Made by a program: the position numbers and the translations under genes | Part shown: one piece after another, positions 2,611 through 49,444 of the stretch | How positions within the stretch are numbered: the first letter of the stretch is position 1 | How the letters are laid out: each line of letters opens with the position of its first letter | Notes under the pieces: generated by a model | Database searches by the model: none | Seen by the model: the letters and a program-made list of their open reading frames with translations, nothing else | What the model was told of the DNA's origin: nothing | NCBI RefSeq assembly: GCF_001192835.1 | Contig: NZ_DF968182.1 | Span: 442,349 to 506,348 of the forward strand | Direction of reading: 5' to 3' | Length of the DNA: 64,000 nt | DNA from: Lentimicrobium saccharophilum | GTDB lineage: Bacteria > Bacteroidota > Bacteroidia > Bacteroidales > Lentimicrobiaceae

Positions 2611-5600
2611 TTACCTGATAACAAGTTTCTGAATGGTTGTTCCGTTTGTTGTTTCAACTTTCAGGAAATATACGCCACTACCGGCATTCAGGCCGATATT
2701 CTGCCTGTATGACTGCTGACCGATAACAACCTGGTTTGAGTAAATAATTTCACCGGTTGTGGTAACGATGCTGATGGTTGATTTTCCGGGTTCGGCATTG
2801 CTGATCTCCAGGGTAAATTCACCCATATTGGGGTTCGGGAAAATACTGACCCTTGTGGCCGATGCATTCTCCTCAATACCTGCGCAGGCATCAACGGTTA
2901 CCATGATTGAAGCGGTTCCTGTACAGTTGTTTGCATCAGTTACTGTTACAGTATAGGTGGTTGCATTCAGGCCCTGGGCTTCTCCGTTAATCTGGATACT
3001 GCGTGTTTCCTGTCCGCTTGACCATGCATAGGCGGCAAACCCTTCTTCAGCTTCGATATTCAGCACATGCGTAATGCAGATGGTGGTATCATTGCCGAGT
3101 GTGGGCTCGGGTGAATGAATCAACACATTGTACCCGGTGGTGGCCGAGCAGGTCGTTAGCGTATTGGTCTCAACGAGGCTCAGGGTTCCCTGTCCATTGC
3201 CGCCCCAGTTAACAACGACTTCGTTGGCATCGGCACCTGAAACGATTTCACCGCCGGTAACTGTCCATTCGTAAGCGTTTCCTTCATTCAGCGGAGTGAT
3301 ATAGGCAACCTGTTCGCTGTTGGCGCATACCAGGGCGTTTCCGTCAATTGCAGGTGCGGGAGCGGGATTGATGGTAACAGCAAATTCGGTGGTATTTGAG
3401 CATCCGAATTCGTTTGTTTCAACCATGTGGAGGCTTCCGGTTCCCGGCTCATCCCAGGTAACGGTGACTGATCCGGTGTTCTGTCCTTCGGTGATGGTGC
3501 CACCCGAAATTTCCCATAAATACTGGTTGCCTTCGCCTTCAGCAGTATATACAAGCTCCGATTGATTCTGGCAGGCTGCATCCGGTCCGTTAACAACCGG
3601 GACGGGCAGTGCATGAATCATTACCTGGAGGTCCATGGTAACCGGTTCGCAGAGTTCATTCCAGGCTGAGAGTGTCAGCATGGCATTGCCTGCTTCGATA
3701 TCTTCGGCGCCGGGGATATACCGCGGATTCAATGATGAAGGATCATCGAAGGTGCCGGTACCCGTTGTTGTCCATTCAAGTTGTGTGTAATTTGCGGCAG
3801 TAGCATCCAGCGCAGAATAACCTTCTCCGGCGCAGATGTCAGCGGTATTACCGGCAAATACTACCGGAGCGAGGCTGAATGAAAGGGTAAGGTAGTCGGT
3901 TGAATCATTGGCAGCAGGATTTGAGGCTGTAAGCGAAAGGAGCACAGCACCCTGTGCGATGTCTTCAGCACTTGGAGAATAAATGGGGTCAAGAATGGTA
4001 GCATCGCTGAAAGTTCCGGTGCCGCTGGTTGCCCAAAGAAGGGAAGTGTAATTTACGGCAGCTCCGTTCAGCTGGGGCTCGGTACCTTCACAAATTGCCA
4101 TGTCTTCACCGGCAATTGCTGAAGTAACCATGGGAATAACATCCACCCATCCTTCATAACGGTTGCAATTGGGACGGGTAATGGTGACCTTGATACGGTC
4201 TCCGGCTGTCATAGGAGGTATTGTAATGGTGATGGTATTTACAAAACCGGTAACACCGGTTCCCAGGATCACACCGTCTGATGTAAGGCATACATTAGAG
4301 TTTGGTGAGGCTGTAATGGTGAATTCGGTTTCATTTTCAAAGATCGTAGGTTCGTAGGTAGCTGCAATCGTCTGGGGTACTTCAGTACAAACCCTGAGGA
4401 AAGCATCCCCGTGATGATGGAAAAGGTTGTAGGTTACTTCCTTGTTACCGGTATTGTAAGGCCAGTTGGACTGACGTAGGAAATATTTTCCGGCTGCGTT
4501 TCCGAATGCCGGTAAAACACCCCTTGATTCAGGGGTTGCACCATACTGAGGCATAAAGTTGGGCCACATATTGTCCATCATGCCCCACACATAGGTATCA
4601 TTCACGAATGAATAAGAAACTTCGGAAGCCGCGATGAGTCCGAGTGCTCCGGCGGGCTGTCCCATGTAAGTGTAACGGTGGAATTTTTCCGTAAAACTTT
4701 CGCTGCTCCAGTTATACTTTCCGGTAAGGCAGTTGATTGACAGGATAAAACACAGGTCGGTATTGGTGAGGTTGGAGATATTGCTGTTTGTATAGGAAGG
4801 TTCTCCCCAGCCGGTTTCCATACCGTGGTCGCGGTGCATCAGCATAAACGATCCTGAATTCAGGGCATTGTTGATCATGGTGGCGTTACCGCCGCTCCAC
4901 CCGCCCATACTGGACGGAGATGCAGGGATATAACCCAGTCCGTTGGGTCCGAAAACGCCAACAACGGTGCTGGTGTTTTGTGCCGATGACCATGAGTTGC
5001 CGGGTGTTCCCTGGTAGATCTCATTGATACGGACAGGCGTTTTGCCCAGCACATTTTTCCAGAAGCCGCCGACGGTTTCTGAGCAGATCTGGAACCAGCG
5101 CTCTGTTTGCCATCCTAATGCTGTAATGGGGTTGGCATAAAAAGAAGGATTGACCGGAGGTCTGCGCTCATAATTCAGGCCTCGTCCAATCATTGATTCA
5201 AGCTGTTCGGCATTCTGGGCTGTAATGCGGGCGAAAATAATGTCAGGCATATGATTTCCGGAAACATCGGCCAGGATATTGTCGGAAACACAATAGTTAT
5301 CGTAAATGGGGGAGGTAATCGAATTGTTGTTGGCGGTTGCCTGACCATAGTCGCCAAGCAACAGAATGGCTGCCGGAGGGGTATCCCATGTGTTGTAAGC
5401 ATTGTTGACATAAGTCTCAAGCATGGCGGCATTTACATTGGTGCCGATTTCGGAAAGTTTCACGATGCCGGTATAAATACCTTCTTCGGTGCGGAATTTC
5501 TTGATTGAATCAGCCCACTGATAGAAAATATCATCGTTCGGAACAATGATCAGGTATTCATAACCAGTACCGCGGGTTGATGCGGATGTCCGCTGATCGT

Positions 5601-6321
5601 AATCAATGACCGGCAGAGAACTGAAATTTATAATGGCATCTTCCATAATGGGATCCCACCAGCGGTTGCGGTATTTATCCTCTCCGAACTGACGGCTGCC
5701 GCCCTCAAAACGGACACTGATCTCCATATCGCGGTATACGATCAGTTCTTTGGTAACCGGATTGTACTGGAAGGGGGTTACCCCAAGCATTGCCACATCC
5801 ACGCCCCTAATCTGACTGTAATCACCCAGGGTGACAGGCTGAGCCGGATAGAAAGCATTGTTGTTATAAATGGCCGGATTTTTTTCAAATTGCAGCGGAC
5901 CCTGATCTGTATCAAGCGGGATGCGTGGAGCCGGAGCCATTTCAATATTCACAAAGCGTTCGGTGCGCATGTTGGTAATTTCAACAATGGCCGTTGCGCC
6001 TTCGGGGATGGCGATATAACGTCCGAAACCCGGAAGATCCGGTGAACCTTCTTCATTCTGGAGGAAAGATTCTGAAAACTCAATTCCGGTCATCACCTGA
6101 CCGTTGATCTCACGGTCGGTGAGACCAAATTCCCGGATAGAGAAATTGAGGCTGATCCCATCCGTGCCCTGACGGTTAAGGGTTAAACCTTGTTTGCCCC
6201 AACTGTCCGGGTACCGGTGATTACCTGCATCTGCACTAATGAAGGAAATGCTCAACACAACGGCCATCAGTAACGTGGTGATGCCATTGCCCGAAAAAAA
6301 CCTGCGTAAAGTTGTTTTCAT
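2611..6321 (-). CDS. Gingipain-like cysteine peptidase (family C25) with T9SS sorting domain
   Basis: This 1236-residue secreted protein starts with a signal peptide (about 1-32). A propeptide-like beta region (about 50-240) precedes the C25 catalytic domain (about 250-650). H499 (RDHGMETGWGE) and C531 (SINCLTGKY) match the gingipain catalytic pair in spacing and flanking residues. Two copies of an Ig-like repeat follow (about 735-905, motif TxGTGTFxD), then two PKD-like segments (about 910-1085). The C-terminal 75 residues are a T9SS type-A sorting domain (IFPNPNMGEF ... TIQKLVIR), so export across the outer membrane and cell-surface anchoring or release are expected. Substrate specificity (Arg, Lys or other) cannot be read from the sequence. 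The gene lies downstream of three other T9SS cargo genes but is separated by a terminator and has its own candidate promoter. Confidence 0.92.
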   Translation of the reverse strand: MKTTLRRFFSGNGITTLLMAVVLSISFISADAGNHRYPDSWGKQGLTLNRQGTDGISLNFSIREFGLTDREINGQVMTGIEFSESFLQNEEGSPDLPGFGRYIAIPEGATAIVEITNMRTERFVNIEMAPAPRIPLDTDQGPLQFEKNPAIYNNNAFYPAQPVTLGDYSQIRGVDVAMLGVTPFQYNPVTKELIVYRDMEISVRFEGGSRQFGEDKYRNRWWDPIMEDAIINFSSLPVIDYDQRTSASTRGTGYEYLIIVPNDDIFYQWADSIKKFRTEEGIYTGIVKLSEIGTNVNAAMLETYVNNAYNTWDTPPAAILLLGDYGQATANNNSITSPIYDNYCVSDNILADVSGNHMPDIIFARITAQNAEQLESMIGRGLNYERRPPVNPSFYANPITALGWQTERWFQICSETVGGFWKNVLGKTPVRINEIYQGTPGNSWSSAQNTSTVVGVFGPNGLGYIPASPSSMGGWSGGNATMINNALNSGSFMLMHRDHGMETGWGEPSYTNSNISNLTNTDLCFILSINCLTGKYNWSSESFTEKFHRYTYMGQPAGALGLIAASEVSYSFVNDTYVWGMMDNMWPNFMPQYGATPESRGVLPAFGNAAGKYFLRQSNWPYNTGNKEVTYNLFHHHGDAFLRVCTEVPQTIAATYEPTIFENETEFTITASPNSNVCLTSDGVILGTGVTGFVNTITITIPPMTAGDRIKVTITRPNCNRYEGWVDVIPMVTSAIAGEDMAICEGTEPQLNGAAVNYTSLLWATSGTGTFSDATILDPIYSPSAEDIAQGAVLLSLTASNPAANDSTDYLTLSFSLAPVVFAGNTADICAGEGYSALDATAANYTQLEWTTTGTGTFDDPSSLNPRYIPGAEDIEAGNAMLTLSAWNELCEPVTMDLQVMIHALPVPVVNGPDAACQNQSELVYTAEGEGNQYLWEISGGTITEGQNTGSVTVTWDEPGTGSLHMVETNEFGCSNTTEFAVTINPAPAPAIDGNALVCANSEQVAYITPLNEGNAYEWTVTGGEIVSGADANEVVVNWGGNGQGTLSLVETNTLTTCSATTGYNVLIHSPEPTLGNDTTICITHVLNIEAEEGFAAYAWSSGQETRSIQINGEAQGLNATTYTVTVTDANNCTGTASIMVTVDACAGIEENASATRVSIFPNPNMGEFTLEISNAEPGKSTISIVTTTGEIIYSNQVVIGQQSYRQNIGLNAGSGVYFLKVETTNGTTIQKLVIR

Positions 6322-6409
6322 GTGTTTGATTTGAAAAGTGTGTGTGAGTAAAAAATTTTACATCCCGGGCAGAATAATACCCTGAGAATGAATAAAATTA
6401 TTAGCATCG

Positions 6410-6442
6410 CAAAAATAAATAAAATTCAATAGGAAGTACAAA
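6410..6442 (-). promoter_or_regulatory. Candidate promoter of the C25 peptidase gene
   Basis: On the minus strand a TATTTTTG box (plus-strand 6410-6417) fits the Bacteroidota -7 consensus TAnnTTTG. TTTG lies 21 nt upstream (6439-6442), slightly longer than the usual 19. It lies about 90 bp before the ATG at 6321 and downstream of the terminator at 6486-6506. Confidence 0.45.
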
Positions 6443-6485
6443 CCCGGTAAATTTTATGACTATTTGTAATCATTAAAAATAAAAA

Positions 6486-6506
6486 GGGGGGCGTCAACTG
6501 CCCCCC
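6486..6506 (-). terminator. Rho-independent terminator after the Asp-box protein gene
   Basis: GGGGGGC (6486-6492) pairs with GCCCCCC (6500-6506) across a 7-nt loop. On the minus strand it is followed by TTTTTATTTTT. It lies 25 bp past the stop codon of the gene at 6531-10454 and separates that putative operon from the C25 peptidase gene. Confidence 0.9.
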
Positions 6507-6530
6507 TGTCAATGGAATTGGTATAATCCT

Positions 6531-9500
6531 TTATCTTTTTACGATCAGTTTCGCCGATAATGTTTTCTCTCTGTTTGAAAGTTTTACCAGATAGATACCG
6601 TTGTTAAGAATGCCGGAATCAAATACCTGTTTTTCATGACTTCCTATCAGTACGTCCGGTTTGCTGAAGACAGTTTTGTTTGATGCATCGGTTATTTCCA
6701 GATGATAAATCCCCGCATTTTCCTGACTGACTTGAATGCTGAAACGGCCGTCCGAAGGATTCGGAAAGACTGAAAAACTGCTGAATTCAACTTCAACCAG
6801 GCCCGTACATTCATTAAAAGTCAGGTTAACAGAAGCTTCGTTTACACAGCCATTTTCATCGGTTATCCTGGCTGTCCATGTACCGGTTCCGGCTCCGATA
6901 CCCGTTGTATCAACGATAATGCTCTGGGTAATGTAGCCGCCCGGCGTCCACAGGTATTGTACATTGCCGGAAGTAACAGCTGTCAGTGTTACCAGGTGGT
7001 TGACACATGCCATGGTATCAGCCGGAAGATACAGGTAAGGCAATTCATTTACTGTAATGTTGTATGTTCCCGATCCCGTTCCCTGACACTGGTTGGCATC
7101 AGTTACCGCGATAACCTGAACGATTTGGGTAGTATCGGGGGCAATGGTAATGTAGGCCGGAGATTGTTCAGCTGTAAATGTGCCATAATCCCCGATTTCT
7201 AATTGCCAGGGTGCTGTTCCGGTCAGCTGAACCTCAATCTGTAATTCCGAACCTGCGCAAATGGTTGTATCTCCGCTGATGACGGCTTCGGGAGCAGGCA
7301 GAATACTGAGTGTAATGACACCTGTTGCATCTGCACATGGTGCTGCAGAGAAAGCTGTAAGCGTAATGGTTGCAGATCCGGCACTGATATCAAGTGATCC
7401 CGGAACATAGGTCGTGTTCAATGATGCGGGATCGCTGAAAGTGCCATCACCGGTCGTACTCCACATAATCGATGTATAGTTCTCTGCCAGAGCTTCAATG
7501 TCAACACCGGTGCCTGCACATGCCGAAAGGGTTTCTGCTGTCTGAACCGAGGCAGGTGTGGAGATGTTCAGTAACATGTCATCTGTTCTCACTTCTCCTT
7601 CCGGACCGTTAACCGTCAGGGTAAGGACCACGTTCCCGTTAATAAGATCCTGGGTTCCGGGGGTATAGAATGTGTTGAGCTGATTTGCATCCTCAAAAGT
7701 ACCGTCTCCCGCAGTAGTCCATAATACTGACGTGTAATTGGTGGCGGTACCGTCAAGCATAACCGGACCCTGTTCGCAGGTGGATGCATCCTGCCCGGCA
7801 TAGGCAGTAGTTTGCATTGGAGCAGGAAAAACAATGTAGTCAACCCATGCACAATCGCTTCCGCCGGTAACATAAACATCTTTACTGTAGACCCAACGGA
7901 AAGTCTGCTGCCCCGGATTCACGGCAAATTTTACCTGCTGCCAGGGTACTTCTCCTGCCCACTGGCCCCTGAGTGTGTTGTTGACATAAAATTTCAGGTA
8001 GTCATAATCAGCTTCGGATGATACTTTCAGGTAGAATGAAATGGTGTCGGGGTTCATTACATTATAGCCGATTTTCATTTCGCTGCTGGCATTGTCGTTG
8101 ATTGCGCCTGATTTCGCACTGGTTTCACCTTCATAAACCTGGTCGGTAGCTATAGTCCATGGGGCGCTGCCGGCAAACTCCCAGTCGAAGCTTTCAAAAC
8201 CGCCGGTCTCCCAGTCTTCGAGGATTAAACCTACCGGTGTAAAGAAATTCTTCAGCGTTGAATGGTACAGGGAGTTTGCCGTGTAATTGAGTGCTACCTG
8301 GTGCCCGACCGGGGCTTCAGGTGAAACGGAGATCTCAAATTCAGCGGCTACTGCGTTCATCATGCCCGGATTAATGTTGCCAAGTTCAACCTGTGTATTG
8401 GTAATGGTTGCATAGGCACTGGCAGTGGTAAGCTGTGCCATTACCTCTTCAGCAGGATAATCACCCGGGTTGAAGGTGATGATGCTGAGTGTGGCGGTTT
8501 CACCGGGATCAAGGCGGCCGTTGATATTGCCGGACGCGTCGTTAATGCTCAGGTTGCCCGCCTGAATACCGGGTGCGTGCGCTTCGATGTTGAAGTTTGA
8601 AACAAATGTGCTGTCATTGGCATCAGTAACCGAGAGGGTGAAAGTGATCTTTTCACCGTCGGGAACGGCAGGTAAAACGGTGAAAGCAAAGGCGTCGGAA
8701 ATGGTTTTTACTTCGCCCACAGCAAAGTCTCCGAAATTTTCAGTATTGTCGGTAAATGTTATAAAAGCAGATTCTGTTGAAATCACTGCATTTACTGCTG
8801 CAGCAGGCTGATCGCCGATATTTTCAAGGGTAACGTTCAGCAGGGCATTTTCAGCATAATCGAGCAGGCCGTTGTTGTTACCGGCAGCATCATTCAGCAG
8901 GTGAGTCTGGTAAATCACCCAGGGTTGGTTGGGCGGCGGGCCGGACTGGAATGCTGAAACATAGGTCATTGCATAGCCGGTGCGGTTGTCGGTCCAAACC
9001 GGATATACCCAGCGGCTTTGGGCGTGAATACCCAGATAATCGCCGAAATATCCGGAAGCCAGGCCTGAAATGGGCTGAGGGGTAAAGGAGACATCGCTCA
9101 CTTTCAGGTCTTCCCAGGAATTGCCTCCGTCGATTGAGTTTGATACATATACCTCGGCCTGCGACCCTGATACGTTGCGGTCATCATAGTAAATAACACT
9201 CAGGTTGCCATTGGCCGGGTCGCAGGTAATCCAGGGAAAGTAATGCTGTTTTCCCAGTCCGGAAGGATCCTGGTTTACCCTGACAGGCGTTGACCAGGAG
9301 TTTCCCTGATCTGCCGAACGGATCATGTAGACATCCATATCGCTGCCGGTATTGGTTCCCGGTACCCCGATGTTGGGCCAAACCACATAGATCATGCCCC
9401 GGTTCGGACCGTTACTGATATCAACGGCCATCGATGGGAAAGCATTCACACGCATGTTCTTTGAAGTTGCAGTGTTCCGGATTCCCCTGATATTACTGAT

Positions 9501-43096: not shown

Positions 43097-43534
43097 ATGA
43101 AACAATTCTTGTTTTTTTTCGCTGCATTCTTGCTGCTTACTTCGTGTAACAAACCATATGTTAAAAAGGAACTGTTTGAGGACGGTTCCGTGAAATCGGA
43201 GAAAACCTTTAAAAAGACCGATGGTAAAGAGGAACTTTTAAAAGAGGTGGTTTTCCATCAGAACGGAAAAAAATACATTGAAGGAAATTATAAGAATGGC
43301 CTGAGGGAGGGTTACTGGGCTTCATGGTATGACGACGGCACCCTCTGGAGCGAAGGTGAATTCAGGGATGGTGAAAGCCATGGAAAGCGCAGCGTTTTTC
43401 ATCCCAACGGAACCCTGTATTATGAAGGCCGTTTTGATATGGGTAAAAGGGTCGGCGTATGGAAGTTTTATGATGAAAATGGCGGCCTGGTGAATGAAAT
43501 TGATTACGACAAGGCCCCTGAAATGCGCAATTAG
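43097..43534 (+). CDS. MORN/YwqK-repeat lipoprotein
   Basis: This 145-residue protein has a lipoprotein signal (FLLLTSCNKP, lipobox LTSC, Cys at about 17). The mature part consists of MORN-like repeats of about 23 residues (YIEGNYKNGLREGYWASWY, LWSEGEFRDGESHGKRSVF, YYEGRFDMGKRVGVWKFY), the pattern called YwqK. Automatic annotation often names this family a toxin-antitoxin antitoxin, but there is no toxin partner here and the protein is exported, so that name is not justified. It lies 23 bp behind pyrC and is probably co-transcribed. The role is unknown. Confidence 0.85.
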   Translation: MKQFLFFFAAFLLLTSCNKPYVKKELFEDGSVKSEKTFKKTDGKEELLKEVVFHQNGKKYIEGNYKNGLREGYWASWYDDGTLWSEGEFRDGESHGKRSVFHPNGTLYYEGRFDMGKRVGVWKFYDENGGLVNEIDYDKAPEMRN

Positions 43535-43595: not shown

Positions 43596-44327
43596 TTACT
43601 GTTTCAGTGCAGCTTTTGAGAATATATATTCCGGAATCTGCTGGTCGAAGCTGATACGGGTGATGGTGAACTCCGTGCCTTCGCCCTGTTTGAGCATATC
43701 CTTGTATTTTACCGTTGTCGGAAACCACCGGCCCTGCACCTTGATTACATCCTTCATTTCCATAAGCTTCAGCATTTTACCGCTTTTGGCATAGAGCTCC
43801 TGTTTCAGCGGAACAAACCTTTCGGCATCAACCCATAATTTCTGTTTATAATAGGCGATATCAGGCACCCTGGCCGTTAATTCAAGCACATAAACCCGGC
43901 GGTCTCCGATCATCGCCTCTCCGGTAACCCTGGCATTATAGACCTCACTGAGTTTCCGGTCGTCCATCATATCCTCATAGGAAAGATCGCTGCCCATCAC
44001 CGATTGTCTGAGCATATGGCCGGAAATCTGAATCGTCCGGTCGGTGGAGGGTGAATAAATCCACAATTGCTTGTCCAGTTTCAGCATTTTAGTGCCTTTT
44101 TCCGAAGCCGGAGAAAGGTACTCGGTAAATGACTGTCTGCTGCCTTCCGAATAACTCTTTGAAGTGATGGTCCGGCTGCTTCTTTTGCCGTGAATGGTCA
44201 TGCTGGACTCAAATACACGGTTTTCTGATGACATATTGGCATCAATTTTTTCAAGGATGGTGTTTGCATCCTGAGCCTGCAAAATATTGAACAGCAGGGT
44301 CAGCGCGATGAGCAATATTGATTTCAT
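43596..44327 (-). CDS. LolA-like outer-membrane lipoprotein-sorting family protein
   Basis: This 243-residue protein has a signal peptide (about 1-18, LIALTLLFNILQAQ). The mature part has the half-open beta-barrel pattern of LolA/LolB-like proteins: SSMTIHGKRSSR, a LWIYSPSTDRTIQISGHM stretch, and the typical QKLWVDAERFVPLKQELY motif (about 163-180). It should be a periplasmic carrier for a lipidic or hydrophobic cargo. It is the last gene of a minus-strand series with two FtsX-type permeases and an ABC ATPase, the same partner types as LolCDE-LolA. The gap to the permease is 115 bp with no terminator seen. It is not the canonical LolA by context. Confidence 0.85.
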   Translation of the reverse strand: MKSILLIALTLLFNILQAQDANTILEKIDANMSSENRVFESSMTIHGKRSSRTITSKSYSEGSRQSFTEYLSPASEKGTKMLKLDKQLWIYSPSTDRTIQISGHMLRQSVMGSDLSYEDMMDDRKLSEVYNARVTGEAMIGDRRVYVLELTARVPDIAYYKQKLWVDAERFVPLKQELYAKSGKMLKLMEMKDVIKVQGRWFPTTVKYKDMLKQGEGTEFTITRISFDQQIPEYIFSKAALKQ

Positions 44328-44442
44328 ATAGCCGGTTGAATTTTTGAGTTTGAACTGTTTGTTGGCATTCTGTTAAAAAGTGTACCCATGAATTATCATT
44401 GCCTGTTCACGTCAGGCATCCCGGGAGTTTGCAACCGGGCAT

Positions 44443-45717
44443 TCAGGCTTCAAGTTCTTTGAAAAGTCTTGCTGTTTGCCGCCTGTAAATGCCGATTCCT
44501 GAAAGCATTGTTCCCAGCACAGTTGAAATCAGTCCGGGAATAAACCCGATGTAAAAGTCGGGAGGAGTAATCCGGGCCCTGATGGTATCGGGGAACATCA
44601 CCGAAGCGCCCCGCATCATCCCTGAAATGTTGATACCATAAGTCTGTATCAGCCAGGCGAAAAAGAGTCCCAGGGCTGTGCCAAGGACAGAACCGGCAAG
44701 CCCGATGATCACCGATTCCCAGATCATGCTCCGGTAAACATGGCCTTTCTCTTCACCCATGGCCAGCCGTATGCCAACTTCACCGTAGCGGCGCAGGCCG
44801 CCAAGCAGGCCTGCATTCCAAAGCACCAGCGACATGGCAAAAATAAAGATCAGTGAAACGTACATTGACCAGATTTCCGACATTGCTACATACTGCCCCA
44901 TGTTCCCTTGCTGGCTTAGGCTTTTCATTACCGGGGCGAATTCGTCGGCATCCGTTGTGTACTTCTTATTAAAATCTCCGGCCATTTCATTGGCCTTTGT
45001 ATTGTCGTAGAAACCTGTATTCATGAATCCCAGGATTTCTCCGGCGGCATCCGGCATATCGAGGGCCATGCGTACGTCCCTGATATCGGCAATGATGGTC
45101 CCTCTGTCCATGATTTCAACGCCGAAAGCGATGGTACCGGCAACTATAAAGTTGTACATGGTCATGCTTCCGTTCATGGAGGAACCGATCAGGGTAACTG
45201 TATCACCCGGGGTTACTTTCAGTTTCAGGGCGAAGGCATCGCTCAGGAGGATTTCACCCGGGCCTGACGGCATTTTTCCCTGCCTGAGGGCTTTCTCCAG
45301 GTTCAGGCGTTGGGTTTCTCTGCTTTGTGCCGATAACAGATCAATGCCGAAGCCCATAGCCGGCCCCTGTGATCGCGTTTCTCCCTGTGAATCCGGAGCA
45401 TCGATCAGACCTCCGAACTTTATTCGGGCGGCCCATTCAGTATCAGGATATTCGTGGCTGAGTGTTGTAAGCAGTTCCTCCACATTCATCAGTGCCAGGT
45501 CAACCGGCATCTGATCCATGTTTTCGGCATAAGCTGCTGACATAACTTTTATGTGGCCGTTTGTGAACCGGGCATTCATTTCGATGGTATCGCCCATGAA
45601 ACCGGTGATATAGGCGTGCATTAGCACCGTGAGCGTAACGCCGATGGTTACCACGATGATTGGCAGCCGGCTGCGGCTTTTATCACGCCACAGACCTATG
45701 ATCAGAAATTTTATCAT
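44443..45717 (-). CDS. FtsX/LolC-like ABC transporter permease (second)
   Basis: This 424-residue membrane protein has an N-terminal helix (about 18-38, LPIIVVTIGVTLTVLMHAYI), then a large periplasmic MacB-PCD-like domain (about 40-270). Three C-terminal helices follow (about 275-300, 325-352 and 380-405), with FtsX motifs such as GEVGIRLAMGEEKGHVYR. It overlaps the upstream permease gene by 4 bp (ATGA), so translation is coupled. The topology is that of mechanotransmission-type exporters (LolCE, MacB) rather than of importers. The cargo is unknown. Confidence 0.9.
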   Translation of the reverse strand: MIKFLIIGLWRDKSRSRLPIIVVTIGVTLTVLMHAYITGFMGDTIEMNARFTNGHIKVMSAAYAENMDQMPVDLALMNVEELLTTLSHEYPDTEWAARIKFGGLIDAPDSQGETRSQGPAMGFGIDLLSAQSRETQRLNLEKALRQGKMPSGPGEILLSDAFALKLKVTPGDTVTLIGSSMNGSMTMYNFIVAGTIAFGVEIMDRGTIIADIRDVRMALDMPDAAGEILGFMNTGFYDNTKANEMAGDFNKKYTTDADEFAPVMKSLSQQGNMGQYVAMSEIWSMYVSLIFIFAMSLVLWNAGLLGGLRRYGEVGIRLAMGEEKGHVYRSMIWESVIIGLAGSVLGTALGLFFAWLIQTYGINISGMMRGASVMFPDTIRARITPPDFYIGFIPGLISTVLGTMLSGIGIYRRQTARLFKELEA

Positions 45718-46889
45718 TGTAGTTTCCCCCTTAAAGCATCGGTTGGATTCATTTTGGCAATTTTCCGCGATGGCAGATAACTCACGATGGTGGTGGTGAT
45801 GGTAACAATCACGATGGTGGTGATGACAAGGCCGAGGCTGTAGACAGGGTAAAGGGTCTGGGCGATGGCCATGCCGAATTCGCTGGTGTCAACGGGCATG
45901 GTCCAGCCCGCTTTGGCCTGCCAGGCCAGGAAAGGCAGACCATAGGCCGCCGCAACAAATGCCGCCAATACGGCATGCATACTTCCCTCAACGGTAAAAA
46001 GCCCGACCACCTGCTGTCGCGTATAGCCCAGCGCTATATAGGTTCCGATTTCTTTCTGCCGCCTGAATATGGAGAGCACCTGGGTGTCGAAAATGGCCAG
46101 CATGGCCAGCAGGAGCAGGATGCCATAAAGTATGGACTGGGCGGCCGATTTGGTTTTGATCATTTCATCCACCTGCCGGGTAAGCTGCTCCCTGGTTTTC
46201 AGCACCCATCCGGCCGCTTCCTGCCGGGGAACATCACTGCTGCGAAAGGTAACCATGGTCGCTTCACCCGGTAGCAACATCATTTCCTGAAGTTTATCCA
46301 GGGCAATATAAACCTGTCCGGCATCAATAGCCGGCACACTGGCAGTGAAAATACCGCAGATCAGGATGTCAGTGGCATCAAAGGTGCCATTGGCATCGCG
46401 CCAGCGAAGGGTAACATAATCGCCTGTTTTTAACCGGCTGGTTTTGGCCATCATTGAGCCGATAATGGCCGGAATGGCATCGGTGGCTGAATCAAGCACC
46501 CGGGTCGGCAATTGAAAAATTGACTGTTCAGGGTTGATTCCCCTGACAATCACCTGCATCATGCGTCCTTCGGGAAAAATGCTGCCCTGTGTAATCAATA
46601 CCGGCTCCATTTCACCGGCGGTGATTTCGGGCAGGAATTCGACCGGCAATGGAGCATGACTTTCGGTAAGGGTAAAGGGATCGTATGGATCGTAGGCTTC
46701 ATGCCAGTATTGCCCTCCGCCGATTTCCCAGTTGGTCATGTCGGTTTTTGCCTGGTGGTCCCAACCCGTCATTACACCTTTCAGCCAGATAATGACGACA
46801 AATGAGAACGACAGCACAATCACATTGAGCCAGGTTCTCAGTCCGGCGCCGATCAGGTTGCGGTATGCCAGTTTGATAGCTAATTTCAT
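45714..46889 (-). CDS. FtsX/LolE-like ABC transporter permease (first)
   Basis: This 391-residue protein has an N-terminal helix (about 18-40), a periplasmic domain (about 45-250) and three C-terminal helices (about 255-275, 305-330 and 350-375). The coupling motif FRRQKEIGTYIALGYTRQQV (about 277-296) is typical of the FtsX family. Its start is 12 bp after the ATPase stop and its stop overlaps the second permease gene. The two permeases differ in sequence, so they probably form a heterodimer as LolC and LolE do. Confidence 0.9.
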   Translation of the reverse strand: MKLAIKLAYRNLIGAGLRTWLNVIVLSFSFVVIIWLKGVMTGWDHQAKTDMTNWEIGGGQYWHEAYDPYDPFTLTESHAPLPVEFLPEITAGEMEPVLITQGSIFPEGRMMQVIVRGINPEQSIFQLPTRVLDSATDAIPAIIGSMMAKTSRLKTGDYVTLRWRDANGTFDATDILICGIFTASVPAIDAGQVYIALDKLQEMMLLPGEATMVTFRSSDVPRQEAAGWVLKTREQLTRQVDEMIKTKSAAQSILYGILLLLAMLAIFDTQVLSIFRRQKEIGTYIALGYTRQQVVGLFTVEGSMHAVLAAFVAAAYGLPFLAWQAKAGWTMPVDTSEFGMAIAQTLYPVYSLGLVITTIVIVTITTTIVSYLPSRKIAKMNPTDALRGKLQ

Positions 46890-46901
46890 GGCTTATAGGG
46901 A

Positions 46902-47603
46902 TTAATTTGATCTGATGATTTCATCTTTGTCAACCCGGCCGTCGAGCAGGAATATTTTCCGGTGAAGGTAACTGATCACCTTGTCGTCATGGGTGGCGAA
47001 AATAAAAGTGGTTTTCAGTTCCCGGTTGAGGGTTTCCATGGTTTGCAGGATATGGTGCGAATTGTCGGCATCAAGATTGGCCGTAGGTTCATCGGCCAGT
47101 ACCAGGGATGGCTTTTTCACCATGGCCCTGGCAATGGCAACCCGCTGGCATTGTCCTCCGGAGAGCTGGGGCGGCTTTGATTTTGCTTTATCGGTCAGCC
47201 CTACCCATTCCAGGGCTTCCATGGTCATCCGGTGCCTTTCGGCGGACGGCAGGTTGAGCAAAAGCAACGGAAATTCAACGTTTTCGTAAACAGTATGTAC
47301 GGCCAGGAGATTGTAGCTTTGAAAGATAAACCCAATGTTCTCCTTTCGCAGGCGCGCTGCCTGCTTGGCGTTGAGTTTTCCGATAGACCTGCCAAGTACC
47401 AGTGCTTCCCCTTCGGAGGGCACATCCAGCGAACCCAGGATGTTGAGCAGGGTGGTCTTGCCTGATCCGCTCGGGCCGATTAGTCCGGCAAATTCACCGT
47501 TGCCGAAGTTCAGGCTGATGCCGCGCAGGGCCGTGAACTCCTCTTTCCCCATGGGGAAACGTTTTACAAGGTTGTTAATGCTGATAACGCTGTTGTTTTC
47601 CAT
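46902..47603 (-). CDS. LolD/MacB-type ABC transporter ATP-binding protein
   Basis: This 233-residue ATPase has Walker A GPSGSGKT (43-50), Q-loop Q95 (FIFQSYNLL), signature LSGGQ (147-151), Walker B LVLADEPTANLD (168-179), and the H-loop in FATHDDKV (about 205). The residue after LSGGQ is Cys (C152) instead of the usual Gln, an unusual but peripheral change. Length and motifs are those of LolD/FtsE/MacB-type ATPases that work with FtsX-fold permeases. It sits between the beta-barrel gene (16 bp) and the first permease gene (12 bp). Confidence 0.95.
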   Translation of the reverse strand: MENNSVISINNLVKRFPMGKEEFTALRGISLNFGNGEFAGLIGPSGSGKTTLLNILGSLDVPSEGEALVLGRSIGKLNAKQAARLRKENIGFIFQSYNLLAVHTVYENVEFPLLLLNLPSAERHRMTMEALEWVGLTDKAKSKPPQLSGGQCQRVAIARAMVKKPSLVLADEPTANLDADNSHHILQTMETLNRELKTTFIFATHDDKVISYLHRKIFLLDGRVDKDEIIRSN

Positions 47604-47619
47604 GAACGATCGCCTTTGT

Positions 47620-48756
47620 TTAATGCGTGTAAACCATCATGATTTGTATGCCTTTTCCGGCAAAGTAATTGTTTGCTGAACCCTGTGAAGGGATCAGGTA
47701 AGTTTCGGGATTGTAATATGCCATAAGATAAAACTGAAAAGCACCGATCAGCTTTTTATAGTTGACAAAACTATAGGCATTCCGGTTTCCCCAGTCAAAG
47801 TAAACAATGGAACTGATATTGCCGGTGATACTGAGGGGGTAGGAGAGTGATACTCCGGTAAAAACGAGAGAGTTCTTATACCGGAAGACTTTTTCTCCTG
47901 TTGCGGCAATCAGGTTTTCGGCAATAACATTCAAGCCATTACCGATGCCAAAAGTATAATCCGTTCCCAGGGTGAGCAGATCCTGATGAGTCAGGTTGCC
48001 GAAATCCTGCAAGCCGGTATGGGTGGCTTCGAACCACAGGCCGGCGCCGGCATCCCATCTGCCATCTATGCCAAAGCGGTTCTCCGGCATTCTGGCGACT
48101 TGCGCAAGCCCTGCCGGGTTTTCGCGGGTGTCGGTGATCCGGTGATGGTAGCTCAGCCCGATTTCTCCTGAGAAAACAGGCAGTTGCACCCGCCCGCCCG
48201 CTTCAGGGATTTTTGCGTTGGTTCTGGTGATTTCCCAGGTTTTGGGTTTATCCGAAGGGTAAAGCGCCCAGAGCCAGATATTGGCATTGTTAAGAAAGTA
48301 GTATCTGCCCAGCAATCCCCAGACACCATCTGTAAGCTGCAAGGGATCGCGGGGATCCACCTGATCAAACCACATCAGCGGCCTCAGCATCTGCGCCGAT
48401 CCGAAGTTGATTTTCTGCATTCCAAGGCGTAACTCAAACTGCTTGCCGGAGTAACGCAACCAGGCGCGGTAGGGTTTCAGGTTGCCGTCTAAACCCAGCG
48501 AATCAAACGGCCTTATGCCCGCGTGGCCCTGTATATTGAAGGACAGTTCAAAGTCCAGAAGGCTGCCCGGCCTGCCTGTTTCATAGTTAAGGCGCGGAAT
48601 ATAGCGGATTCCGGGCATGAGTGAAACATCCTGTCCGGGATTGTAATTCAGCCAGGCGGAAGCCTGACCCCCGAAATACAGCGAATCGCGGTGTTGGGCA
48701 GCCGCTCCTTTGATAAGGAAAACAGTCAGTATCGTTATGAATGCCAGCCGGTACAT
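47620..48756 (-). CDS. Probable outer-membrane beta-barrel protein of the ABC operon
   Basis: This 378-residue protein has a signal peptide (about 1-20, MYRLAFITILTVFLIKGAAAQ). The rest alternates hydrophobic and polar residues with many Tyr, Trp and Phe (RAWLRYSGKQFELRLGMQKI, ANIWLWALYPSDK), as in porin-like barrels of about 14-16 strands. The family is not recognised. It begins 2 bp after the TetR gene and ends 16 bp before the ABC ATPase gene, so it is part of the same operon. An outer-membrane acceptor or channel for whatever the LolCDE-like transporter handles would fit. Confidence 0.75.
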   Translation of the reverse strand: MYRLAFITILTVFLIKGAAAQHRDSLYFGGQASAWLNYNPGQDVSLMPGIRYIPRLNYETGRPGSLLDFELSFNIQGHAGIRPFDSLGLDGNLKPYRAWLRYSGKQFELRLGMQKINFGSAQMLRPLMWFDQVDPRDPLQLTDGVWGLLGRYYFLNNANIWLWALYPSDKPKTWEITRTNAKIPEAGGRVQLPVFSGEIGLSYHHRITDTRENPAGLAQVARMPENRFGIDGRWDAGAGLWFEATHTGLQDFGNLTHQDLLTLGTDYTFGIGNGLNVIAENLIAATGEKVFRYKNSLVFTGVSLSYPLSITGNISSIVYFDWGNRNAYSFVNYKKLIGAFQFYLMAYYNPETYLIPSQGSANNYFAGKGIQIMMVYTH

Positions 48757-48758
48757 CT

Positions 48759-49364
48759 CTATTGGTTTTCAGGTACAAAGGGGTCCGGGGATATTCCGTA
48801 GGTGAATAAACGGGCCAGCTCCATGATTACCCCTGCAGGACCTCCACAGAGACCGGTCAGGTAAGGATCGTTGAAAAGGTCCGTTACCTTTTGCGAAATG
48901 TACAGTAGTATCTCAGGCTTCATGTCTTTCCGGAATTCCCCCCGCTGCTGCGCCTGCCTGTATACATCCAGAATGGTTTCCCACGATGATGCGGTCTTTT
49001 GTTCAATGTGCGCTTTCAGCCCGCTTTCGTTGTCTGAATAGAAATCACGGATAAAATCACCGCTTATGTTCTTTACAGATTCTGATTTCATCTGCAATAT
49101 GTGCTTCATTTTTTCAGGAACAGATATTCCGGATTGCATGATCTTCCGGAACTGCTCCATACTCTTTTCCAATTCGTTGTCAAAAATTTTCTTTGCCAGG
49201 GTTGCTTTATCATTAAAATAGCGGTAAAAGGTCATTTTGCTGACACCGGCTGCTTTACATATCTCATCAACCGAAACTTTCCGGAAGCCATACTTCCAGA
49301 AAAGTTCGCGCCCCGCTTCCAGTATGGCAGCCTCTTTTTTACTTTCAGGCTTTACGACAAACAT
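48759..49364 (-). CDS. TetR/AcrR-family transcriptional regulator
   Basis: I take the ATG at 49364 (MFVVKPESKKEAAILEAG), giving 201 residues. The in-frame TTG at 49388 overlaps the -7 box. The helix-turn-helix lies at about 12-58 (GFRKVSVDEICKAAGVSKMTFYRYFNDK), a clear TetR pattern. The C-terminal ligand-binding and dimerisation domain (about 70-200) is helical and not assignable. It heads the operon with the beta-barrel protein, ABC ATPase, two permeases and LolA-like protein. It probably represses this operon from the palindromes at 49420-49480. Confidence 0.92.
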   Translation of the reverse strand: MFVVKPESKKEAAILEAGRELFWKYGFRKVSVDEICKAAGVSKMTFYRYFNDKATLAKKIFDNELEKSMEQFRKIMQSGISVPEKMKHILQMKSESVKNISGDFIRDFYSDNESGLKAHIEQKTASSWETILDVYRQAQQRGEFRKDMKPEILLYISQKVTDLFNDPYLTGLCGGPAGVIMELARLFTYGISPDPFVPENQ

Positions 49365-49385: not shown

Positions 49386-49416
49386 CAAAAATACAATTAT
49401 AGTATAGTTTTGTCAA
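49386..49416 (-). promoter_or_regulatory. Promoter of the TetR-headed operon
   Basis: On the minus strand TTG (49414-49416), 20 nt, then TATTTTTG (49386-49393), a full TAnnTTTG match. It lies 21 bp before the ATG at 49364. The inverted repeat at 49420-49444 begins 3 bp upstream of the -33 box. Confidence 0.55.
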
Positions 49417-49419
49417 GTT

Positions 49420-49444
49420 TTTCCGTAAATATTTTTTACGGAAA
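49420..49444 (-). promoter_or_regulatory. 10-bp-arm inverted repeat, probable TetR operator
   Basis: TTTCCGTAAA (49420-49429) and TTTACGGAAA (49435-49444) are perfect complements around TATTT. The 25-bp span and position touching the -33 region fit a TetR-type operator controlling the operon below. Confidence 0.55.

Follow-up and report, generated by a model that had tools for sequence, protein, structure and literature searches.

A conserved operon of Lentimicrobium saccharophilum with LolCDE-like ABC proteins, a LolA-like carrier and its own predicted outer-membrane barrel: a candidate route for small hydrophobic compounds

How do greasy molecules, small lipids among them, get across the periplasm to the outer membrane? 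The question is open for many bacteria, including Bacteroidota, and it is made testable by a compact six-gene candidate pathway that keeps the regulator, the motor, the carrier and the outer-membrane end together. We analyzed such a candidate, an operon in a 64,000-nucleotide stretch of the Lentimicrobium saccharophilum genome (assembly GCF_001192835.1, contig NZ_DF968182.1, positions 442,349 to 506,348), hereafter the window, whose numbering is used unless another label is given. The operon is real, conserved and self-contained. We consider it fairly probable that its products form a carrier pathway across the envelope, repressed by TetR and powered by ATP, for a small hydrophobic or amphiphilic compound other than a protein, such as an envelope lipid, a pigment, a terpenoid or a toxic hydrophobe.

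All six genes lie on the reverse strand. They encode a TetR-family regulator (48759-49364; TetR_N, 58.5 bits), a predicted outer-membrane beta-barrel of 378 amino acids (aa) with a signal peptide-like start and 18 predicted strands (47620-48756), an ABC ATPase of the LolD/MacB/FtsE group (46902-47603; ABC_tran, 115.6 bits), two FtsX-fold permeases, PermA (45714-46889; FtsX, 52.1 bits) and PermB (44443-45717; FtsX, 61.5 bits), and a predicted periplasmic LolA-like carrier (43596-44327; LolA_like PF17131, 200.7 bits). The Pfam matches of the regulator, the ATPase, both permeases and the carrier were all above the family cut-offs. The tetR gene probably begins with the ATG at 49364, with a longer TTG frame from 49388 as an alternative. 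This gene order had been proposed in a reading of the letters and open reading frames (ORFs) alone, hereafter the sequence-only reading, and the coordinates and Pfam matches agree with it; the intergenic gaps that it gave (2, 16, 12, -4 and 115 bp, from tetR to the carrier gene) were reproduced from the ORF coordinates.

The sequence-only reading also named the co-occurrence of the barrel gene with the transporter in relatives as a test of its proposal, and the two do occur together. In what follows, labels beginning with G denote sampled genomes, L individual loci, and C1 and C2 contigs of the L. saccharophilum genome; the order was sampled with 149 genomes and the phylum, for the barrel search, with 395. 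The barrel gene was matched in 26 of the 149 genomes, or 25 after removal of G062, in which the match (20 bits) lay in a 611-aa frame and the locus (L075) was without operon genes. PermB matches were obtained in 115 of these genomes with a bimodal distribution of scores, 24 genomes having at least 424 bits (47-100% identity) and the rest 61 bits or less. Barrel and PermB orthologues were found together in 23 genomes, the barrel alone in two (G084 and G014), PermB alone in one (G042) and neither in 123 (Fisher p 1.1e-23, a value that ignores the relatedness of the genomes). The three genomes with a single gene all have it at a contig end: in G042 the contig starts within PermA, in G084 PermA reaches the contig end, and in G014 the barrel gene runs off the contig. 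They therefore cannot count as a separation of barrel and transporter, and the missing partner was not found elsewhere in those assemblies. In G058 and G131 the two genes are on separate contigs, each of which breaks inside the operon.

Among the 24 related loci, 19 carry the genes for the barrel, the ATPase, PermA, PermB and the carrier, the remaining five being truncated at contig ends; a TetR gene was detected in 18 of the 24. In the phylum sample, the barrel was found in 12 of the 395 genomes, and the 11 loci besides the window's own, all from other orders, had the ATPase, PermA, PermB and the carrier beside it in every case, with TetR detected in five. A scan of public genome contigs yielded at least 542 relatives, the best 80 of which were analyzed as named loci; these overlap with the 149-genome sample in at least four cases, so that the two sets are not independent. 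Among these best 80, the closest relative was a Lentimicrobium metagenome-assembled genome (L170, 84% identity). Layout I, as we call the arrangement in the window, also occurs in species that can be cultivated, such as Rhodocytophaga aerolata (L190) and Maribellus maritimus (L222). All five structural genes were present in 56 of the 80, and the 24 incomplete loci comprise 22 cut by the end of the sequence, L207, with the ATPase gene in two pieces (4139-4846), and L239 (carrier-TetR-barrel), with no ATPase in the 890 bases after the barrel gene. When the count was confined to the 42 named loci with long flanks on both sides (the other 38 being too short on one side and included in the 80-locus count), the ATPase, PermA, PermB and the carrier were present in 42/42, and TetR adjoined the barrel in 31. 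Gene order was the same in most loci, and the carrier was upstream of TetR and the barrel in L063, L099 and L239. A second match of G390 (L110; 34 bits, at a contig end) was without operon genes. A chance neighbourhood is ruled out by the linkage conserved in the order, the phylum and the named loci. No biosynthetic, cargo or other gene was constantly linked to the operon among the flanking ORFs of at least 100 aa, a search that did not extend to shorter genes, including those for small lipoproteins; the commonest flanking cluster was found in 10 of the 80 named loci, at scattered positions.

Components, separate Lol genes and regulation

The barrel matched no Pfam or NCBIfam family, and the search for a relative in the PDB returned only a chance-level antibody match by sequence (E 1.9) and none with a profile. 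The AlphaFold2 model, built with 23 sequences, has a helical signal-like start followed by 18 strands (pLDDT 86.5, pTM 0.78). Foldseek placed general porins (OmpC) first, with TM-scores of about 0.5. VIA-align, applied to the Foldseek candidates, ranked OprD/Occ channels first (Z 23.1, root-mean-square deviation, rmsd, 3.1 over 289 residues to 4FSP), followed by AlgE (Z 21-22), Wzi (20.2) and maltoporin (about 20). Since barrels easily share folds, these matches indicate the kind of barrel and not its function. The loop at residues 115-144 contains 12 of the 41 invariant columns, versus 3.5 expected (p 2e-5, for a loop chosen after the alignment had been seen), suggesting a conserved constriction in the lumen of the modelled barrel.

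The ATPase and the permeases resemble Lol proteins without reaching the curated thresholds. The ATPase scored 226.3 bits against the LolD model, below the cut-off of 307.75 (NCBIfam), and the permeases gave partial matches of 43.0 and 48.9 bits to the LolC/E model TIGR02212 (cut-off 362.45). As modelled (pLDDT 84.4), PermA has the LolC/LolE fold: its nine best structural matches were to subunits of LolCDE (Z 22.4-25.4 over 352-370 residues, rmsd 4.3-7.5), and further LolC/LolE structures (Z 14-20) were also found, as were other type VII ABC proteins, among them MacB (Z 17-19) and HrtB, which exports heme (Z 20). PermB was studied by profile comparison only, and matched LolF, MacB and LolE. In LolC, a Hook formed by residues 167-179 recruits LolA (PMC10865981). 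The profile alignment of PermA to Escherichia coli LolC has no counterpart for Hook residues 171-175 (LolC numbers were counted back from the end of the printed alignment). The rest of the PermA loop at this position has residues W163, R164, G168, F170, D171 and A172 invariant in 25 sequences, and it forms a two-stranded hairpin in the model (158-164 and 170-181). In our reading, this hairpin may be a shorter Hook suited to the PF17131 carrier.

The carrier profile matched four solved LolA-superfamily proteins (3BUU, 9TP6, 3BK5 and 4Z48; E 2.5e-25 to 7.6e-20). Its best score against the NCBIfam LolA models was 18.2 bits, below the cut-off of 100. A LolA-type carrier is thus present, as first proposed, but its family is PF17131 ("LolA_like") and not the LolA family PF03548. 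The latter has a single match in the genome (C1:1187899), and the same gene scored 198.9 bits against LolA1_Flavo (cut-off 100). Two full-length LolC/E-like permeases are also encoded elsewhere (L082 5096-6337 and L083 5239-6459; 210 and 179 bits against TIGR02212), likewise below the curated cut-off. The best LolD-like ATPase elsewhere reached 264 bits, more than the ATPase of the operon, and is below the LolD cut-off, which only one of 14 control genomes passed. Separate housekeeping Lol genes, whose presence the sequence-only reading had named as a check, were therefore found, and the LolA and LolC/E-like genes rule out the operon as the only Lol system of the genome.

A perfect 25-bp palindrome, with 10-bp arms and a 5-bp spacer, lies between the fumarase gene and tetR (49420-49444). 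The chance expectation for such a palindrome in the window is 0, and we regard it as a candidate TetR operator. No other match with fewer than three mismatches was found in the 4.5-Mb genome, which fits a local autoregulator. A wider TetR regulon was considered and dropped, as there was one further site with three mismatches and a reversed-pattern control likewise gave one. Between the palindrome and tetR there is a candidate Bacteroidota -7 promoter element on the reverse strand, TAnnTTTG (49386-49393); it is preceded by TTGACA, and the palindrome is upstream of both. The same scan gave six TAnnTTTG in 6.3 kb, and a match to this motif alone is weak. An exploratory scan of all 5- to 7-mers identified TACGAA or its complement upstream of 12 of 18 tetR genes (17 relatives and the window; the 35-bit TetR of L065 was left out), versus 2.1 expected. 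The palindrome upstream of tetR and the half-site enriched upstream of TetR orthologues speak for the control of the operon by TetR, as initially suggested.

Sister layouts and known systems

The genome contains a second PF17131 locus, at about C2:50185-55714, in which the genes are in mirrored order (carrier, PermB', PermA', ATPase', barrel II); we refer to it as layout II and to the arrangement in the window as layout I. No TetR gene was found beside this second locus. In 14 relatives the mirrored order was complete in 10, partial in two and absent in two, and TetR preceded it in five. Barrel II was found in 54 of 119 genomes of the order, with some weak matches, and six of 15 of its members match DUF1302 at E <= 0.01. 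In G348, layout I runs directly into layout II (TetR-barrel-ATPase-PermA-PermB-carrier-carrier'-PermB'-PermA'-ATPase', to the contig end; L101 176-9313 and L277 392-1123). The two layouts are joined there in one directional array, suggesting that a single response can draw on both.

Most of 20 further PF17131 loci belonged to neither layout: in 17 the carrier has a protein of 611-932 aa as its neighbour (with a small ORF between the two in three of them), two are layout II and one is cut. All four large proteins that were scanned turned out to be MMPL/RND proteins (layout III). Six barrels neighbouring layout III carriers were also scanned; four matched DUF1302 above the cut-off and two did not. 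Barrels resembling those of layout III were detected in 36 of the 247 genomes sampled from the phylum, a count based on the barrel match only and including some weak matches; none was matched in the genome of the window.

Barrels II and III are clear relatives in profile comparisons (97.8%; the layout III alignment, A6, comprises 10 barrels, L253 and L267 being left out). The alignment of the window barrel family (A1, 23 members) left out a truncated sequence (L074) and the barrel of G116, whose gene is split by one in-frame stop (L054 9987-11120). None of the 23 members matched DUF1302 (PF06980) at E <= 0.1. With hhalign, this family matched barrel II at 92% (score 58.6) and the layout III barrels at 66% (44.6), and the controls scored lower: at most 33.0 for 14 reversed or block-shuffled alignments, 20.6 and 25.5 for the carrier and PermA alignments, and at most 22.4 for four flanking ORFs judged by eye to encode outer-membrane proteins. 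The barrel that the sequence-only reading could place in no family thus indeed matches no Pfam family, but profile comparison points to a remote relationship with DUF1302 barrels.

Among the closest parallels to such a cassette is AmeABCD of Castellaniella defragrans, which comprises a DUF1302 barrel, a DUF1329 protein of the LolA superfamily, AmeC and an HAE3 RND pump (PMC6394551). Like the window operon, it combines a dedicated barrel, a LolA-superfamily periplasmic protein and an inner-membrane motor; in our data, a carrier orthologue accompanied the barrel in 42/42 fully flanked loci. The differences lie in the motor, which is of the RND type and not a LolCDE-like ABC complex (genes for ABC proteins adjoined the barrel in 19/24, 11/11 and 42/42 of our loci), in the longer DUF1329 protein of 451 aa in place of a PF17131 carrier, in AmeC, in a 605-aa barrel that belongs to DUF1302, and in the regulator, there being no TetR in the parts described. 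AmeABCD is inducible and associated with hydrophobic compounds, features that we suppose for the window operon too. Although it resembles the machinery of lipoprotein sorting, our operon is distinct from it and seems to be an ABC-driven counterpart of the Ame-type exporters.

Within the same phylum, the TetR-MMPL-PF17131 operons of Porphyromonas gingivalis (PG1178-PG1181) and of Prevotella relatives also contain TetR, a LolA-like carrier and a further protein, which in layout III is the barrel; we infer that the hypothetical protein PG1178 is this barrel. Their motor is of the MMPL/RND type. Iron depletion induced PG1175-PG1181, which include genes for TetR, an MMPL transporter and an "outer membrane lipoprotein-sorting protein", 13- to 136-fold, and similar operons of Prevotella intermedia roughly 40- to 220-fold (PMC10434189). 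When hemin was limited, such genes ranked first by P value (log2 changes 7.4-8.1; PMC10470040), and they rose in mutants of hmuS (PMC13227078) and PG_0686 (PMC10101095). This induction by low iron or hemin belongs to the layout III-like operons and not to that of the window. With its MMPL/RND pump, layout III is similar to AmeABCD and probably also to the low-iron-induced PG1178-81 operon. The array in L255 (1077-10291), with TetR, a 781-aa protein, the carrier, a barrel matching the layout III profile and then two ABC-type proteins (572 and 583 aa), is much like the published description of PG1175-PG1181.

Canonical Lol (LolCDE, LolA and LolB) shares with the window operon the LolD-like ATPase, two LolC/LolE-type permeases and a LolA-superfamily carrier. 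It differs in that the operon has no LolB and has its own barrel and TetR, a carrier of another Pfam family and a short hairpin at the Hook position of PermA, with separate Lol genes elsewhere in the genome. A LolA-type protein has been proposed to transport a pigment at the outer membrane in Flavobacterium johnsoniae (LolA2/LolB2 of the flexirubin locus; PMC11885536), although these genes are part of a pigment biosynthesis locus, and the accessible text mentions no barrel or ABC complex of their own. Our literature search, without most subscription papers or any preprints and judged largely from result listings, returned no description of the ABC layouts.

Proposed route and rival explanations

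We propose that a ligand would free TetR from the palindrome and thereby induce the operon. The ATPase, PermA and PermB would then pull the compound out of the inner membrane by the LolCDE/MacB mechanism, and the short PermA hairpin, at the place of the LolC Hook, would dock the LolA-like carrier, which would take the compound and deliver it to the 18-strand barrel, a stand-in for LolB passing it into or through the outer membrane. We infer here the induction, the docking on PermA, the export direction, the hand-over from carrier to barrel and a hydrophobic non-protein cargo. We favour this route because the barrel and the transporter are linked, PermA has a LolC/LolE fold in its model and the carrier belongs to the LolA superfamily; because the 18-strand model resembles OprD, AlgE and Wzi and has a conserved loop; because LolA and LolC/E-like genes are found elsewhere and no gene is constantly linked within the size range searched; because layouts II and III keep carrier and barrel while the gene order changes or an MMPL/RND protein replaces the ABC complex; and because of the palindrome and the TACGAA enrichment. 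The analogue AmeABCD, moreover, was up-regulated on a monoterpene, and growth on monoterpenes was reduced when ameB carried an insertion (PMC6394551).

Several observations weigh against this route. The direction of transport cannot be read from the sequence, and by Foldseek E-value the best matches of the barrel are ordinary 16-strand porins such as OmpC. The link between the barrel and DUF1302 is remote, single barrel II and III sequences giving 1-61% (scores 21.9-41.6). The TACGAA half-site and the arms of the window palindrome differ in sequence, and TetR was undetected in 11 of 42 fully flanked loci, six of 24 related loci and six of 11 loci from other orders, so that either TetR control is not universal or TetR diverges fast.

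The Lol fold is, in addition, equally compatible with lipoproteins as cargo. The operon might be a second, specialised Lol pathway, which would move a subset of lipoproteins with a barrel that helps to place them at, or flip them to, the surface; the fold of PermA and the superfamily of the carrier would both suit it, and Bacteroidota are thought to specialise duplicated LolA and LolB proteins, as in LolA1-3 of F. johnsoniae (PMC11885536). We regard such a pathway as unlikely, since PermA is without five Hook residues of LolC in the alignment, the carrier is a PF17131 protein with a low LolA score, no gene for a cargo is constantly linked among ORFs of at least 100 aa (a range that leaves out shorter lipoprotein genes), and layout III pairs the same carrier family with an MMPL/RND pump. 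Drug efflux, with the ABC complex, carrier and barrel detoxifying foreign compounds, would differ from the route that we favour mainly in its cargo, and is less likely still. TetR-type regulation is common for efflux pumps, MacB is among the structural matches of PermA, and a divergent TetR/OEP/HlyD/ABC-2 cluster is found directly upstream in four of the 80 loci (L206, L212, L219 and L241; Pfam-scanned in L219). AmeD has also been suggested to have a role in dye efflux (PMC6394551). The operon shares with MacAB-TolC an ABC protein with a MacB-fold permease, but it has a separate ATPase, two permeases and a soluble carrier, and the ORF list and Pfam revealed neither an HlyD-type membrane-fusion adaptor nor TolC among its six contiguous genes.

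The third alternative, which we find improbable and the least likely of these, is an importer in which the barrel takes up a scarce hydrophobic nutrient, for instance a tetrapyrrole, which the carrier brings inward to the ABC complex. MacB-fold (type VII) ABC proteins act as exporters or mechanotransmitters, which argues against import. The best VIA-align matches of the barrel, to OprD/Occ, are to substrate-specific uptake channels, but AlgE and Wzi, involved in export and surface assembly, scored nearly as well. Uptake would also suit the finding that a shortage of iron or hemin strongly induces operons resembling layout III in P. gingivalis and P. intermedia (PMC10434189 and PMC10470040).

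If the export route is correct, it suggests that Lol-like parts have been recruited for cargo other than lipoproteins, and for this reason the annotation of PF17131 proteins as "outer membrane lipoprotein-sorting protein" may mislead. It is possible, and we put it forward tentatively, that PF17131 carriers form a general, motor-swappable outer-membrane delivery route in Bacteroidota, with a carrier and a dedicated barrel standing in for LolB, its motor being either a LolCDE-like ABC complex, as in layouts I and II, or an MMPL/RND pump, as in layout III, and moving non-protein lipids or hydrophobes by a Lol-type shuttle.

Variant loci and inserted reading frames

A gene for a MORN_2-repeat protein (43097-43534) is convergent to the operon and has no counterpart among the neighbours shared by related loci. 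A defence system was considered and rejected, PADLOC having matched the ABC ATPase alone, through generic ATPase models. Two PermA copies are present in one operon in L065 (4235-7984) and L102 (9869-12381). In G016, the barrel II gene is beside those for an ABC ATPase and a protein that looks, from its sequence, like an MlaE permease, replacing the usual partners (L129 135-3363).

In four relatives, ORFs of PF05635, the 23S rRNA intervening-sequence protein family, lie between operon genes at differing junctions (L061 12212-12574; L063 13659-14024; L066 5366-5725; and three in the single operon of L065, at 3797-4159, 6260-6688 and 8033-8404). Another was found in a layout III operon (L259 5225-5575). 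Five of these seven ORFs were scanned, and all five were above the cut-off. The pattern resembles that of a small mobile ORF inserting itself between genes that are transcribed together. In a similar position, a PDDEXK_3 ORF lies between the carrier and PermB' genes of a layout II operon (L125 2881-3267).

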